Below, piece after piece: positions 4,203 to 10,953 of a DNA stretch of 64,000 bases (its first letter is position 1; each line of letters opens with the position of its first letter). The stretch lies in the NCBI GenBank assembly GCA_019359505.1, contig JAHHHD010000002.1:248001-312000 (forward strand), given 5' to 3'. A program made the translations under genes and the position numbers. The notes under the pieces were generated by a model. It did no database searches and was not told the DNA's origin. It was given only the letters and a program-made list of their open reading frames with translations. Source of the DNA: Drouetiella hepatica Uher 2000/2452. Lineage in GTDB: Bacteria > Cyanobacteriota > Cyanobacteriia > Elainellales > Elainellaceae.

Positions 4203-4634
4203 TTTTTCTGAGTAGGTGAACTGACAATCTCATTATTGACTTCTAACCTCAGCTAAGAGCTGAGCAGAAGCACGGATTTTGCTTTGCTCGCAACTTAATC
4301 AAAACTTGATATTTCAGCAATTTTCGGCAATAAAGATTAAGCGTTCAACAAGCTGCTCTTCTCACATTGCCACCCACATTGCCATATTGATCCTAAAATT
4401 GACCCTCAATTAGGTTGAAACCTGCGGCGGTAGAATTGCCTTGATACGTTTATACTAATTTGAGTTGGCTAAATTTTAGTTCAACTGCACTTGTGCTGAG
4501 CCTTTCAGCTCTTAAAAAGCGCTACGGGTAGGGGCATCTGTCAACAAATCTCAATAAAATTGCTAGATATAGCATCAAAGATCAGTTAATCTTATCTCAA
4601 CCTTGCACCGGGTCTGAAACCGAGATTGAGAGCT
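4203..4634. other. Divergent intergenic region between the PEP-CTERM gene and dnaE-N
   Basis: 432 bp, A+T-rich, without a supported gene or palindrome. It must hold the promoters of both divergent genes, but I could not assign a -35/-10 pair confidently. Confidence 0.5.
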
Positions 4635-7223
4635 ATGTCCTTTGTTGGTCTACATATTCACAGCGACTACAGCCTTTTGGACGGCGCAAGCCAGCTTCCA
4701 GAGCTGCTCGATCGCGTCGTAGAGCTGGGGATGCCAGCGATCGCCCTTACGGATCACGGCGTCATGTATGGGGCGATCGAGCTGTTGAAGGAGTGTAAAG
4801 CTCGTGGCGTGAAGCCGATCGTCGGCAACGAGATGTACGTAATCAATGGCGACATCACGAAACAGGAGCGCCGTCCCCGCTATCACCAGGTAATCTTGGC
4901 AAAGAATACCCAAGGGTATAAGAATCTGGTCAAATTAACCACAATTTCTCATTTGCAAGGCGTTCAGGGCAAAGGCATTTTTTCGCGCCCCTGCATTAAC
5001 AAAGAGCTGATCGAGCAGTACCGGGAAGGGCTGATTGTCACGAGCGCCTGTCTGGGAGGAGAAATTCCCCAGGCGATCATGCAGGGTAAGCCAGAGATTG
5101 CCCGTCGCATCGCCCAGTGGTATCAAGAGCGGTTTGGCGATGACTACTACCTGGAGATTCAGGATCACGGCTTGCAGGAGGAGCGAATTGTCAATCCTGA
5201 GATTATTCGCATTGCCCGCGAAATGGACATTAAGCTGGTTGCCACCAACGACTCCCACTATATTTCCTGCTTTGATGTAGAAGCCCATGACGCGCTGCTG
5301 TGCATTCAGACTGGGAAGCTGATTAGCGAAGAGAAGCGGCTGCGGTACACGGGCACCGAGTATCTCAAGTCGGCAGAAGAGATGCGTTATCTCTTCCGCG
5401 ATCACCTGCCGGAAGAGGCGGTAGAGGAGGCGATCGCCAGCACGATGGAGGTCGCCGACAAGATCGAAGAATACGACATTATGGGAAAGCCTCGCATCCC
5501 GGAATATTCAGTCCCCGAAGGCTATACCAAAGACAGCTACCTGAGGGCAATTACCCGTCAAGGCTTGATGGATCGCTTTGGCTATGAGTCCTATGACCAG
5601 GTAGAACCCTTGTATCAAGAGCGGCTAGAGTATGAGCTGCAAATGATGCACCAGATGGGTTTTGATGCCTACTTTCTCGTGGTTTGGGACTACATCAAAT
5701 ATGCCCGCGATCACGGCATTCCGGTAGGACCAGGTCGCGGATCGGCAGCGGGTTCTCTTGTGGCTTATTCCCTGGCAATTACTAACATTGACCCGGTGCA
5801 TCATGGCTTACTGTTTGAGCGATTTCTCAATCCCGAACGCTTCTCGATGCCAGATATCGATACAGACTTTTGTATCGATCGCCGCGATGAGGTGATTAGC
5901 TACGTGACGGATAAGTATGGGAGCGATCGCGTTGCCCAGATTATTACCTACAACCGCATGACCTCAAAAGCGGTGCTGAAGGACGTGGCGCGAGTGCTGG
6001 ATATTCCCTATGCGGAGTCCGATCGGATGGCGAAGCTGATTCCCGTTTCGCGGGGTAAACCAGCAAAGCTGAAGGTGATGATTTCAGAGGGCACCCCTGC
6101 ACCAGAATTTAAGGCGAAGTATGACAATGATCCAAGGGTTCGCCACTGGCTCGATACGGCAATCAAGATTGAGGGCACTAACAAGAGTGTGGGGATTCAT
6201 GCGGCAGGTGTGGTGATTTCCTCGCATCCGCTGGATGAAGTCGTGCCGCTTCAGCGCAACGCTGATGGCTCTGTGTTTACGCAGTATTACATGGAGGACA
6301 TTGAGGCGCTGGGGCTGCTGAAAATGGACTTCTTGGGACTCAAGAACCTAACAATGATCCAGAAAGCGGTGGATCTGATTGCCCAAAATCAAAATGTTGT
6401 GATTGATCTCGATCATTTGTCTCTGGACGATCCAAAAGTTTATAAGCTGCTGTCGCAAGGCAACCTAGAAGGTATCTTTCAGCTTGAATCTTCAGGAATG
6501 CGGCAGATTGTCCGAGATCTAAAGCCGTCCGGATTGGAAGACATCTCTTCGGTACTGGCGCTGTATCGACCGGGACCGCTGGATGCAGGGCTGATTCCCA
6601 AGTTCATTAACCGTAAGCATGGGCGAGAAAGAATTGAGTACGAACACCCAATCCTAGAAACCATTCTCAACGAAACCTATGGGATTATGGTCTATCAAGA
6701 GCAGATTATGAAGATCGCTCAAGATATGGCGGGCTATTCCCTAGGGCAAGCCGATCTGCTGCGGCGAGCAATGGGCAAAAAGAAAAAGTCGGAGATGGAA
6801 AAGCATCAGCAGATCTTCATTGATGGGGCGGGCAAAAACGGCGTTAAGGCAAAAGTTGCCACCGATTTGTTTGAACAAATGGTGATGTTTGCAGAATATT
6901 GTTTGAGCTATGAAATGCCCGTACTCACCGTTGAATATGGCGCTTTGCCGATCGGTAAAATTGTCGAGAATCAGGTTCAATGCACGGTTTACAGCGTTAA
7001 CAATCATGGCTACATCTATACTCAACCGATCGCCCAATGGCACGATCGCGGGCAGCAAGAAATCTTTGAGTATCTGTTAGAAGATGGCTCAATTATTCAG
7101 GCAACCAAAGATCACAAGTTCATGACAGAAGCGGGACAAATGCTGACGATCGATGAGATTTTCCAGCGAAACCTGGACTTGAAGCGGGTGGAAGTGCGAT
7201 CGCCCGTTCTTGCGGGTCGGTAA
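4635..7223 (+). CDS. dnaE-N: DNA polymerase III alpha subunit, N-terminal half fused to N-terminal split intein (DnaE-N)
   Basis: The N-terminal two thirds of the replicative polymerase, 862 residues from the ATG at 4635 (an in-frame TTG at 4626 is less likely). It has a PHP domain at the start ([12 protein letters not shown]), the polymerase core with [15 protein letters not shown], and the catalytic aspartates in PDIDTDF (D407, D409). At the codon at 6900 the extein ends in FAEY and the split intein begins with Cys1 in [14 protein letters not shown]. The 107-residue intein-N carries block B (ATKDHKFMT). The C-intein and the rest of DnaE are made from a separate gene starting at 7874. Protein trans-splicing should join the halves, as established for the Synechocystis and Nostoc DnaE inteins. 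The short distance to the other half is highly unusual. Confidence 0.96.
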
Positions 7224-7224
7224 T

Positions 7225-7848
7225 ATGGGAGATAGTTTACTCAATCCTCTCAGAGACTCTATGGTGTTTTCTCCGCCCCAACTCAAGTCGCTGCTGTGCC
7301 TGACAGACGATGAATACTTTCTCCTGTGTCAGGCAAATCCTGACCTAAGAATTGAGCGTAACTCTAGCGGAGATTTAATTATCATGTCCCCTACAGGTGG
7401 TGAAACGGGTCATCGGAATATTGAAATTTCCTTTCAGGTACAAGCCTGGAGTCGAACAAACGATTTAGGATTTGCTTTCGATTCCTCTACGGAGTTTAAA
7501 ATGCCCGGAGGCGCGAACTATTCTCCTGACGCAAGCTGGGTGAGGCGCGAACGCTGGAATGCCCTGACTCCAGAGCAAAAGCGCAAATTTCCGCCGTTGG
7601 CTCCTGACTTTGTGATTGAATTGCGATCGCCCTCTGATTCCATCGGCACGCTGCGCGTCAAGATGCAGGAATATATCGATAACGGCGTACGGCTGGGCTG
7701 GTTGATTGATCCCAAAAATCGGCAGGTGGAAATTTATCGATTAGAACAGGAAGTTGAGGTTCTCAAAAATCCTGAAACGCTTTCTGGTGAGGATGTATTA
7801 CCCGGCTTTGTGCTGGATTTGAAACCTATTTTTGCAGATGTTGAATAA
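7225..7848 (+). CDS. Uma2 family (DUF820) PD-(D/E)xK nuclease-fold protein between the intein halves
   Basis: A protein of about 207 residues of the Uma2/DUF820 family, very common in cyanobacteria, with a restriction-endonuclease-like fold and mostly unknown roles. Visible family blocks are LTDDEYFLLCQANPDLRIER, IIMSPTGGETGHRN, the metal-binding Asp in YSPDASWVRRERW, the Glu in DFVIELRSPSD and KMQEYIDNGVRLGWLIDP. The chosen ATG (7225) lies 1 nt after the dnaE-N stop, so translation is probably coupled; ATG 7261 is an alternative. It ends 25 nt before dnaE-C. It occupies the place where a homing endonuclease domain sits in an unsplit intein. Whether it has anything to do with intein mobility is inference, since free-standing Uma2 genes are scattered through cyanobacterial genomes. 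Confidence 0.9.
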   Translation: MGDSLLNPLRDSMVFSPPQLKSLLCLTDDEYFLLCQANPDLRIERNSSGDLIIMSPTGGETGHRNIEISFQVQAWSRTNDLGFAFDSSTEFKMPGGANYSPDASWVRRERWNALTPEQKRKFPPLAPDFVIELRSPSDSIGTLRVKMQEYIDNGVRLGWLIDPKNRQVEIYRLEQEVEVLKNPETLSGEDVLPGFVLDLKPIFADVE

Positions 7849-7873
7849 CTTATTAAGTAACTTATAAATAGCT

Positions 7874-9220
7874 ATGGTTAAAATTATTAGTCGTCAATCT
7901 TTAGGGATGCAAGCTGTTTATGACATCGGCGTTGAACGAGATCATAACTTTGTTTTAAGTAGCGGTTTGGTTGCCTCTAACTGCTTCAATAAATCTCACT
8001 CGACCGCCTATGGCTATGTCACCTATCAGACGGCATATCTTAAGGCAAACTACCCGGTTGAATACATGGCGGCTCTGCTCACCTGTAACAGCGGTGATCA
8101 AGACAAAGTGCAGAAATATATTGCTAGCTGTGTCAACATGGGCATCCAGGTGGAGCCGCCGGACATCAACCGATCGGGCGTAGACTTTACCCCCCTACAA
8201 ACCACCATTTTGTTTGGGCTGTCGGCAGTACGGAATGTGGGAGAAGGGGCGATCGAACATCTGCTGATTGCCCGTGAAGAGGGTGGCAAGTTCAAATCTT
8301 TGGCGGATTTGTGCGATCGCGTGGATTCTCGCACCGTTAACCGTCGAGCCTTGGAAGCACTAATTCAGTGCGGCGCGTTAGATAGTTTAGAGAGTAACGA
8401 AACCAATCGAAATCAGCTCATTCAAGACTTGGAGCTGTTGCTAGAGTGGGCACAATCTCGCGCCAAAGATCGGCTGATTGGACAGGGCAATCTGTTTGAT
8501 TTGTTTGGGGGTGCGACTGCCGCTTCTAACAAGTTTGAGACGGCTCCTAAAGCACCTGCCGTACCCGACTATCCGCCTCAAGAAAAGCTGCGTTTAGAAA
8601 AAGAGCTTTTGGGTTTTTATATCTCAGACCATCCGCTGAAGTCAATTCAGCAGGCGGCTAGAGTCCTGGCACCGATCAACCTTAGCGATTTGAATGACAA
8701 ACCCGAAGGCGTGATGCTGAGCGCGATCGCCATGGTCAGCACCATTAAACCGATCGTGACGAAACGCGGCGACAAAATGATGGCGCTGCAAATTGAAGAC
8801 CTGAGCGGACAGGTTGAGGCGGTGGTCTTCCCAAAATCCTTTGAGCGGATTGGCGAACTGTTGCAGGTCGATGCGCGGCTGATGCTCTGGGGCAAAGTAG
8901 ACAAGCGAGACGATCGCACTCAGTTCATCATTGAAGATGCAGAGCCGATCGATGATGTCTGCATGGTGATGGTGGATCTAGAGCCGCAGATTGCCGGAGA
9001 TGTCGTGAAGCAACATCACTTGCGCACGGTATTACTAGAGCAGCGCGGCGATGAGGATAAAAGCAAGATTCCGGTGATTGCGGTAATTACGGGGAACGAT
9101 CGCCGTGAGCTAGTGCGGCTGGGGGCACAGTTTCGAGTCCAAGACCACCAAGCAACGGTGAGTGCGCTAATGAAGGCAGGATTTCAAGCTCGAACCGAGC
9201 CGCTTGTTCAGGCATCCTAA
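7874..9220 (+). CDS. dnaE-C: C-terminal split intein fused to DNA polymerase III alpha C-terminal part (DnaE-C)
   Basis: Residues 1-36 are the C-intein: MVKIISRQSLGMQAVYDIGV, then block F (ERDHNF) and the terminal GLVASN with the cyclising Asn36. Cys37 begins the C-extein (CFNKSHSTAYGYVTYQTAYL), 412 residues long. The C-extein contains the end of the polymerase fingers, the helix-hairpin-helix region (SAVRNVGEGAIEHLL) and an OB-fold domain (LSAIAMVSTIKPIVTKRGDK, SGQVEAVVFP). Together the exteins give about 1,167 residues, normal for bacterial DnaE. No clear Shine-Dalgarno precedes the ATG, so expression probably depends on the upstream Uma2 cistron. Confidence 0.96.
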   Translation: MVKIISRQSLGMQAVYDIGVERDHNFVLSSGLVASNCFNKSHSTAYGYVTYQTAYLKANYPVEYMAALLTCNSGDQDKVQKYIASCVNMGIQVEPPDINRSGVDFTPLQTTILFGLSAVRNVGEGAIEHLLIAREEGGKFKSLADLCDRVDSRTVNRRALEALIQCGALDSLESNETNRNQLIQDLELLLEWAQSRAKDRLIGQGNLFDLFGGATAASNKFETAPKAPAVPDYPPQEKLRLEKELLGFYISDHPLKSIQQAARVLAPINLSDLNDKPEGVMLSAIAMVSTIKPIVTKRGDKMMALQIEDLSGQVEAVVFPKSFERIGELLQVDARLMLWGKVDKRDDRTQFIIEDAEPIDDVCMVMVDLEPQIAGDVVKQHHLRTVLLEQRGDEDKSKIPVIAVITGNDRRELVRLGAQFRVQDHQATVSALMKAGFQARTEPLVQAS

Positions 9221-9529: not shown

Positions 9530-10430
9530 TTGACTAATTTCGCAGACCACAGCGAGAAGTTTTCCCACGACGAAATTAATCGATATCTAGGTGGGGAGAA
9601 AATAACGCCTCGTCTGGTGTGGGAAAACGTTAGCTCTCAGGTGATCCAGACTTCCACGGGATATCTGTTGTTTGACGACACAGTGCTCGACAAGCGCCAC
9701 TCCTTTGCAATTGACCTAGTCCGACGGCAGTACAGTGGCAATGCTCATGGAGTCCTTAAAGGGATTGGAGTGGTCACTTGCGTGTACGGCAATCCAGAGT
9801 TGGATCAATTCTGGGTCATTGACTACCGGATTTACGACCTAGTGGGAGACGGCAAACGTAAGCTCGATCCTGTCAGCGAGATGTTGAGCCATACGGTCTA
9901 TCACAAACAACTGCCGTTTCAAGCCGTGCTGATGGACACTTGGTATGCCACCAAAGACCTAATGCTGTTGATTGAGTCCCTCCAAAAGGTTACTACTGCC
10001 CGCTCAGAGACAATCGCCATGTTGATGAATCAGGAGGGCAACAGTCCTACCAACGAGTGGATTCCCTCAACTGGAGTCAGAGTGAACTGAGGCAGGGTAA
10101 GCGCATTACAATCAAAGGCTTTCCTAAAGACCACAAAGTGCAGTGTTTCCGGGTTGAGGTGTCCACCCACCGCACGGACTTCGTTGTGACCAACGATTTG
10201 GCTCAAGATTCTACAGAAGCCGCACAACAGGCCTGTGGCTTGCGTTGGAAGATTGAGCAACTGCATCGTGAGACTAAGCAGGTCACTGGCTTAGAGGCTT
10301 GCCCGTGCCGCAAAGCCCGGATTCAGCGCAGCCACATTGGCTGTGCCTTTCTGGTTTGGGTGCGGCTTAACGCTTTGGCAAAGCAGGCAGGGCAGACTAT
10401 CTATCAACTTAAACATGGCTTGCTCGAAGA
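9530..10430 (+). pseudogene. IS701-like transposase remnant (frameshifted)
   Basis: Decayed transposase of the IS701/IS4-type DDE superfamily. The first part (9530 to about 10020, FDDTVLDKRHSFAIDLVRRQ, FQAVLMDTWYATKDLM) and the second (10057 onward, LNWSQSELRQGKRITIKGFP, VTNDLAQDSTEAA, CRKARIQRSHIGCAFLVWVR) are in different frames, joined by a scrambled stretch near 10020-10090. The N-terminus is also broken: ARQPDQL is followed by an in-frame stop and a frame change at about 9525. AGGACTTACGCAG at 9399 looks like the left terminal repeat. It continues in frame into an IS630 remnant. It is not functional. Confidence 0.85.
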
Positions 10431-10953
10431 GCTGAAGCACGAAGCATTTCAAGAGCAATTAAAGAGCAAGTCAGCCGCTCAGGTTGTCTATGTGGATGAA
10501 GCAGGCATTGATAACCGAGAGGAGCATCCCTATGGCTACTGCGAGATTGGGCAACGCTTTAGTGCAACTCAATCAGGCAAACGCACCGAACGAGTCAGTT
10601 GGCTTGCCGCGCTCAAGTAAGGGGAGATCTTTGCCCCGATGACCTTTACAGGAACCTATAATCGAGATTTATTTGAGTTGTGGTTAAAGGACTGCCTGCT
10701 GCCAAAATTGCAAAGTGGAGATGCGATCGTCATTGACAATGCGAGTTTCCATCACTCTGCCTATATTGAGCAGATCGTGGCAGCCGCCGGATGTGAACTC
10801 TGGTATCTGCCTCCCTATTGCCCAGATTTGAACGATATCGAGCATTGGTGGAGTGTACTGAAAAACTGGATGAGACAACGATGGGATGAATTTGATAGCT
10901 TCCGAGATTGCGTGGATGCTGCTTTTAACGAGCGTCCTAACGTTTACCCGTAG
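10431..10953 (+). pseudogene. IS630-like transposase C-terminal remnant with nonsense codon
   Basis: The C-terminal DDE part of an IS630-family transposase: VVYVDEAGIDNREEHPYGYC (first Asp), DAIVIDNASFHHS (second Asp) and YCPDLNDIEHWWSVLKNWMR (catalytic Glu). An in-frame TAA at 10618-10620 interrupts LAALK-GEIFAPMTF, where relatives read through with a Gln-like codon. The HTH and N-terminal region are missing and replaced by the IS701-like sequence in the same frame, so the two elements recombined or one was inserted into the other before decay. Confidence 0.85.

Follow-up and report, generated by a model that had tools for sequence, protein, structure and literature searches.

A split DnaE intein with tandem halves and a nuclease-family gene between them in the cyanobacterium Drouetiella hepatica

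The dnaE locus of Drouetiella hepatica Uher 2000/2452 was analysed in a window of 64,000 nucleotides (contig JAHHHD010000002.1, positions 248,001-312,000 of the forward strand; genome G000), and we found the two halves of a split DnaE intein in tandem, with a Uma2-family nuclease gene between them. In model cyanobacteria, the two dnaE halves carrying the split intein are separated on the chromosome. We consider the window locus very probably to be a fractured DnaE intein that has survived in the native dnaE position, with a resident nuclease and ancestral in type to the separated inteins. The view that the tandem layout is an intermediate preceding separation is well supported. Labels beginning with G and L denote genomes and fetched loci, respectively.

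The coordinates of the locus are given in Table 1. The dnaE-N open frame (4626-7223, with ATG at 4635 and a TAA stop codon) matched the PHP, DNA_pol3_alpha and finger domains and ran into the N-intein, in which the ATKDH motif is of the TxxH type. The insertion was located between ...FAEY and CFNKSH and carried Cys1, the final Asn of the C-intein and Cys+1, which are the features of a split DnaE intein. The two intein halves were found in separate frames, with a stop codon at 7221-7223 and a new start at 7874, and no continuous intein frame was present. A preliminary description of this stretch had reported the tandem order on one strand, the 650 bp from the dnaE-N stop to the dnaE-C ATG, Cys1 at 6900 and Asn36 before Cys+1, all of which we confirmed. 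It had also likened the locus to an intein interrupted by a gene, which proved correct, as the gap is filled almost entirely by a Uma2 gene that the description had overlooked. The Uma2 start codon lies 1 base past the dnaE-N stop. The encoded protein scored 170.3 bits against PF05685 (cut-off 27), which places it in the Uma2 family, and had a solved relative in 1wdj (4.9e-40). Adjoining host halves on the same strand with a nuclease-family gene between them constitute the layout of a fractured gene. A search of the G000 genome revealed a single pol III alpha domain match and a single dnaE-C match.

Table 1. Features of the split dnaE locus in the window.
Feature	Position	Strand	Evidence
dnaE-N extein (PHP, polymerase, finger domains)	4635..6899	+	domain matches
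N-intein, 107 aa, Cys1 codon 6900-6902, stop 7221-7223	6900..7223	+	NCBIfam TIGR01445 8.5e-11
Uma2-family (PD-(D/E)XK-type) nuclease gene, ATG 7225, stop 7846-7848	7225..7848	+	PF05685 3.4e-50
25-bp spacer, Uma2 stop to dnaE-C start	7849..7873	+	sequence
C-intein, 36 aa, ends VASN (Asn36)	7874..7981	+	NCBIfam TIGR01443 1.1e-6
dnaE-C extein from CFNKSH (Cys+1), stop included	7982..9220	+	NCBIfam PRK07373 3.9e-223 (over dnaE-C 7874-9220)

A single transcript of dnaE-N, Uma2 and dnaE-C with coupled translation is likely, since a consensus scan of the stretches between the three genes detected nothing terminator-like or sigma-70-like. The same gene order was observed in the congener G003 (locus L062), which has its own assembly, and in G002, of the same genus, dnaE-N was followed by Uma2 as far as the contig end. 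The ratios of nonsynonymous to synonymous substitution rates (dN/dS) against G003 were 0.017 and 0.031 for the N- and C-exteins, 0.052 and 0.16 for the N- and C-inteins, respectively, and 0.11 for Uma2; the window Uma2 is therefore under purifying selection, less tight than that on DnaE. An assembly artefact or chimera could produce such a layout, and G000 is a draft of 87 contigs, in which the window sits within a 336-kb contig. The probability of this explanation is negligible given the order in the congener and the tandem N-C order in six genomes recorded as a single contig (G005, G011, G040, G053, G057 and G194).

To survey the layout, 290 genomes of the same class with a completeness of at least 90% were used, with a C-intein match threshold of E ≤1e-17. 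A C-intein match was found in 131 genomes and both halves in 129. The tandem order, defined as both halves on the same contig and strand with N before C, was present in 23 of these 129 genomes, which belong to eight families, and the gaps ranged from 349 to 8180 bp. Two further tandems were hidden across contigs. In G091, the N and C contigs share an exact 119-bp overlap located within a LAGLIDADG gene, and in G284 the last 118 bp of the C contig match the N contig at a remnant of the gene labelled c28, downstream of dnaE-N and Uma2. The layout is thus not unique to the window genome, a candidate reading that we rejected. The preliminary description had treated the order as rare and had named its being common in sequenced cyanobacteria as the result that would overturn it; with 23 of 129 genomes in tandem and two more hidden, the claim of rarity fails. 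Tandem loci were also seen in Leptolyngbya sp. PCC 7375 (L097), Leptolyngbya sp. FACHB-36 (L065), Nodosilinea sp. WJT8-NPBG4 (L079), Oscillatoria sp. CS-180 (L086), Limnofasciculus baicalensis (L121) and Microcoleus sp. FACHB-1515 (L074). The opposite order was observed in eight genomes of family f26 (G064, G077, G089, G117, G132, G162, G168 and G197), in which dnaE-C precedes dnaE-N by ~14 kb, both being on the same strand.

The gene neighbours of the fetched loci were clustered, and sharing between tandem and intact loci is named here for five sets. Both flanks of tandem L097 and L213 were common to intact L118, L119 and L122, and both flanks of tandem L079, L211 and L215 to intact L106. Tandem L072 had its upstream genes in common with intact L252, and tandem L204 its neighbours with L108 and L111. 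The window and L062 had upstream genes in common with intact L242, and the downstream genes of L062 were common to intact L064; the genome of the latter (L244) is the closest intact row on the DnaE tree. In these five sets, the cassette stands at the place of the intact, intein-free dnaE of relatives.

A DnaE extein tree was built from 115 rows (32 tandem, 39 separated and 44 intact) and 1164 columns. Among the 31 pairs less than 0.12 apart, 13 were tandem/intact, 12 tandem/tandem and 6 intact/intact, and none included a separated row. Tandem and intact tips were closely mixed, as in Nodosilinea WJT8 (tandem) and FACHB-131 (intact), 0.019 apart, and in Leptolyngbya PCC 7375 (tandem) and Adonisia turfae (intact), 0.030 apart. 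A three-state Mk fit (intact, tandem, separated), with G284 recoded as tandem, gave rates of 8.1 for intact to tandem, 10.7 for tandem to intact and 2.4 for tandem to separated; the remaining three were 0. Forbidding intact to tandem cost 12.9 log units and forbidding tandem to intact 13.3. With G284 coded as separated, the pattern was the same and forbidding intact to tandem cost 15.1 log units. Under this model, the tandem and intact states switch often on the DnaE tree, and no return from the separated state is called for.

These results bear on the alternative of a later reunion, in which once-separated halves were rejoined by rearrangement. Non-tandem genomes do outnumber tandem ones (106 of 129), and the halves are separated in the model species. 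Reunion is nevertheless very improbable, and a pre-separation intermediate is favoured, because the tandem loci of all five compared sets have the neighbours of intact alleles and no change from separated to tandem is needed in the full fit; nuclease-type genes also recur in the gap. The preliminary description had left both possibilities standing, and it is the state preceding separation, and not the reunion, that is upheld. The basal placement among split-intein DnaE that it had proposed to look for was not borne out: on the extein tree the window lineage is embedded in a mixture of tandem and intact species, and its intein clusters with those of other families.

The intein data rejected the extein topology (approximately unbiased (AU) test, p 0.0015), and therefore the inteins probably moved between lineages. 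The window intein grouped with those of G040 (family f6), G057, G194 and a Phormidium sp. OSCR record (98/92), while the other inteins of the window's family were placed elsewhere on the intein tree or were unresolved. Since it groups with inteins of other families, the window intein may have come in sideways. One clade (99/93, bootstrap not settled) contained all five separated inteins sampled from family f32 together with four tandem ones, three of them LAGLIDADG-bearing and one with a short gap. By likeness, f32 is heterocystous: for the four of these five genomes that were checked, Scytonema, Tolypothrix and Calothrix were the nearest among eight named relatives.

The gap content was surveyed in 30 distinct tandem loci with 51.6 kb of gap in total; five more tandem loci (G014, G091, G284, G300 and L083) stand outside this set. 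A nuclease-type gene was found in 16 of the 30 gaps, including the frameshifted one of G040, and a remnant in 3 more; the other 11 held other genes or short spacers. The gaps of G040, G142, G145 and G175 contained a LAGLIDADG-type gene (PF14528, 2e-11 and 7.5e-11; PADLOC 'HEase', 9.6e-4). Close relatives of this gene, defined by at least 59% identity over the matched part, were present in 6 of 388 genomes, each of the six from a different family, in all six cases within the dnaE gap, and the search of the 388 genomes found no close relative away from dnaE. Three distant matches with 26-29% identity occurred in G059, G205 and G036. In G175, G145 and G142, the end of the LAGLIDADG gene and the start of dnaE-C overlap by 8 nt; in the first two, but not in G142, the beginning of the gene also overlaps the stop of the N-intein.

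The gap genes form a decay series. The LAGLIDADG gene is apparently frameshifted near its end in G040, is internally deleted in G091, is reduced to its last 45 residues in G300 and is represented by start-like and end-like pieces, read by eye, in L121; Uma2 remnants are found in the gaps of G005 and L065. A vestige of the LAGLIDADG end was sought before the window dnaE-C start, where the likeness was too short to claim. A search of viral contigs for the L097 LAGLIDADG gene gave three pattern matches, none of which was confirmed, and a structure model of the L097 protein made without an alignment had a mean predicted local distance difference test score (pLDDT) of 45.6 and was not used. Carriage of the intein by a plasmid or phage was considered and rejected, with no plasmid match and five phage records giving weak matches of 23-33% identity.

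Uma2 genes were located in 9 of the 30 gaps (10 copies) and additionally in G284, and the gap copies were of two types. They could be chance passengers, in a gap that simply tolerates the insertion of abundant genes and within an otherwise ordinary split intein, and we give this explanation an even chance. Uma2 genes are very abundant (55 matches in the 6.4 Mb of G000 and 643 in 12 genomes of ~70 Mb), other gaps are occupied by other genes, and c28, c30 and c5-type Uma2 genes occur outside gaps too. Against this stand the 10 copies in the gaps versus ~0.5 expected from the Pfam-count density in the 12 genomes, a comparison in which the genomes were partly chosen for having Uma2, the two counts used different profiles and the gap copies are related by descent. 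A flank control found 8 Uma2 genes in 1.88 Mb with a profile built from gap copies, which hence favours the gap, and the Pfam counts are the fairer measure. The dN/dS of the window Uma2 and its closest relatives also speak against a passenger. In 12 genomes, these relatives were two other gap copies (87% and 69%), followed by one at 61%. For the second type, a search of 10 genomes placed five gap copies, from four genomes, ahead of all other matches, with a 64% copy outside a gap coming next. These closest-relative searches replaced a Uma2 tree in which the gap copies stood beside genome copies chosen by Pfam score and not by closeness.

Among the remaining gap genes, c30 was present in 3 of the 30 gaps (L075, L085 and L086) and matched a PD-DExK model (3.4e-9), and c28 was present in the gap of G014. 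In L083, dnaE-N was cut by the contig end and no known gap gene was matched. That c28 and c30 are exclusive to the gap was ruled out, as relatives were found elsewhere. Two genomes with separated halves carry such genes behind dnaE-N: a c28 gene in G101, and c33 and c30 pieces in G290. This fits a tandem state first and separation later, and is not proof, because c28 and c30 have relatives elsewhere and G280 has a cluster away from both halves. In that cluster (L417, 4774-7272), a c5-type Uma2, c28 and c30 lie together; a c5-type Uma2 copy was also seen four open reading frames (ORFs) upstream of the intact dnaE of L093.

We propose that the window layout descends from an intein with a free-standing nuclease gene in its middle, a LAGLIDADG gene in some lineages and Uma2 or another PD-DExK-type gene in others. 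One mRNA would yield DnaE-N, Uma2 and DnaE-C, the intein halves would associate and trans-splice full DnaE, and the gap gene would never belong to the intein protein. The cassette would enter and leave the intact locus through recombination or homing, and a drifting apart of the halves would lock the state and give rise to the known separated DnaE split inteins. A homing role of Uma2 is the least certain step; its residence in the gap, its gap lineages and its remnants suggest such a role, and its abundance and the other genes in gaps argue for caution. A more far-reaching version, which we offer tentatively and regard as rather doubtful, would hold that the split DnaE inteins of cyanobacteria are what remains of a mobile fractured intein that ran through a complete homing cycle, in which a LAGLIDADG gene invades intact dnaE and decays, Uma2-type or other PD-DExK nucleases take over homing, and separation freezes the element. 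If true, Uma2 would be a new class of homing endonuclease.

Several points weigh against the proposed descent. The 106 genomes not seen as tandem comprise 41 with both halves on the same contig and 65 with halves on different contigs, the latter including the two hidden tandems. Deriving the separated state from the intact instead of the tandem state costs only 0.2 log units, a difference that the state data cannot discriminate. The extein tree came from a quick LG+G4 search only, and its rows were picked by state, with the intact rows mostly taken near tandem ones, which makes the sample biased. The intein tree comprised only 71 rows and 139 columns, and its bootstrap had not settled; one clade of the five LAGLIDADG-bearing inteins was a candidate that it did not recover and that was not rejected at 0.05 (p 0.074). 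In G059, the site of the distant LAGLIDADG match (26% identity, E 5e-14) is remote from dnaE. The window lacks a LAGLIDADG gene, with no match in G000 and Uma2 as the gap ORF, and some gaps hold unrelated genes, such as a 683-aa ORF or opposite-strand kinase-like genes.

Other irregularities were observed around these loci. Directly downstream of the window dnaE-C, overlapping transposase-like ORF fragments were present at 9530-10953, the last of which was judged by eye to be IS630-type DDE-like; at this site the congener L062 carries genes common to intact relatives. Repeated pieces of the second half of the N-intein lie downstream of dnaE-N in G058 (C24:20434-22194; L061 and nearby), a second, partial N-intein copy lies downstream of dnaE-N in G290 (L415, 4291-4482), and several f24 genomes have 3 to 6 intein matches each. 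An interruption of ~1.1 kb near DnaE-N residue 686 was found in the tandem L063 (8246-9338) and in L095 (5452-6581), which is without the split intein, and is perhaps a second intein site.

Split DnaE inteins are in wide use as tools for joining proteins, and the origin of split inteins is an open question. We found the same intein in tandem, nuclease-bearing, decaying and separated forms, several of them in close relatives, which makes the steps directly testable: homing driven by the gap nuclease, reversion to intact dnaE and separation of the halves. According to one review, split inteins are speculated to arise by genomic arrangements that split a contiguous intein (PMC5874633), and another paper describes neighbouring dnaE frames with a 415-aa intein in Desulfonema, which it distinguishes from the split intein of cyanobacteria (PMC6390638). 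Among the titles and abstract beginnings of the matches listed, no paper announced, for cyanobacteria, a split dnaE in tandem order or one with a nuclease gene dividing its halves, and a prior report is possible.

The window intein closely resembles the naturally split DnaE intein of cyanobacteria (Synechocystis/Nostoc type), reportedly described by Caspi in 2003: the host protein is the same, the C-intein has 36 aa and the N-intein ~100 aa, the key splice residues are present and the sequences are closely related. It differs in that its halves form a tandem at a single locus and enclose a nuclease gene, instead of being separated on the chromosome. In fractured genes with split inteins and a free-standing endonuclease, said to have been described by Dassa in 2009, the host gene and intein are likewise broken mid-way, and a nuclease gene lies between the two parts. 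In the window and its relatives, however, the host is the cellular dnaE of several cyanobacterial families, and the gap nucleases are of LAGLIDADG, Uma2 and other PD-DExK types, which are reportedly not the family of the Dassa-type fractured genes. Free-standing phage LAGLIDADG endonucleases matched the relatives' gap gene at 24-32% identity among the matches listed (20 of 144); unlike them, the gap gene is placed between split-intein halves, and in three genomes it overlaps either one half or both.
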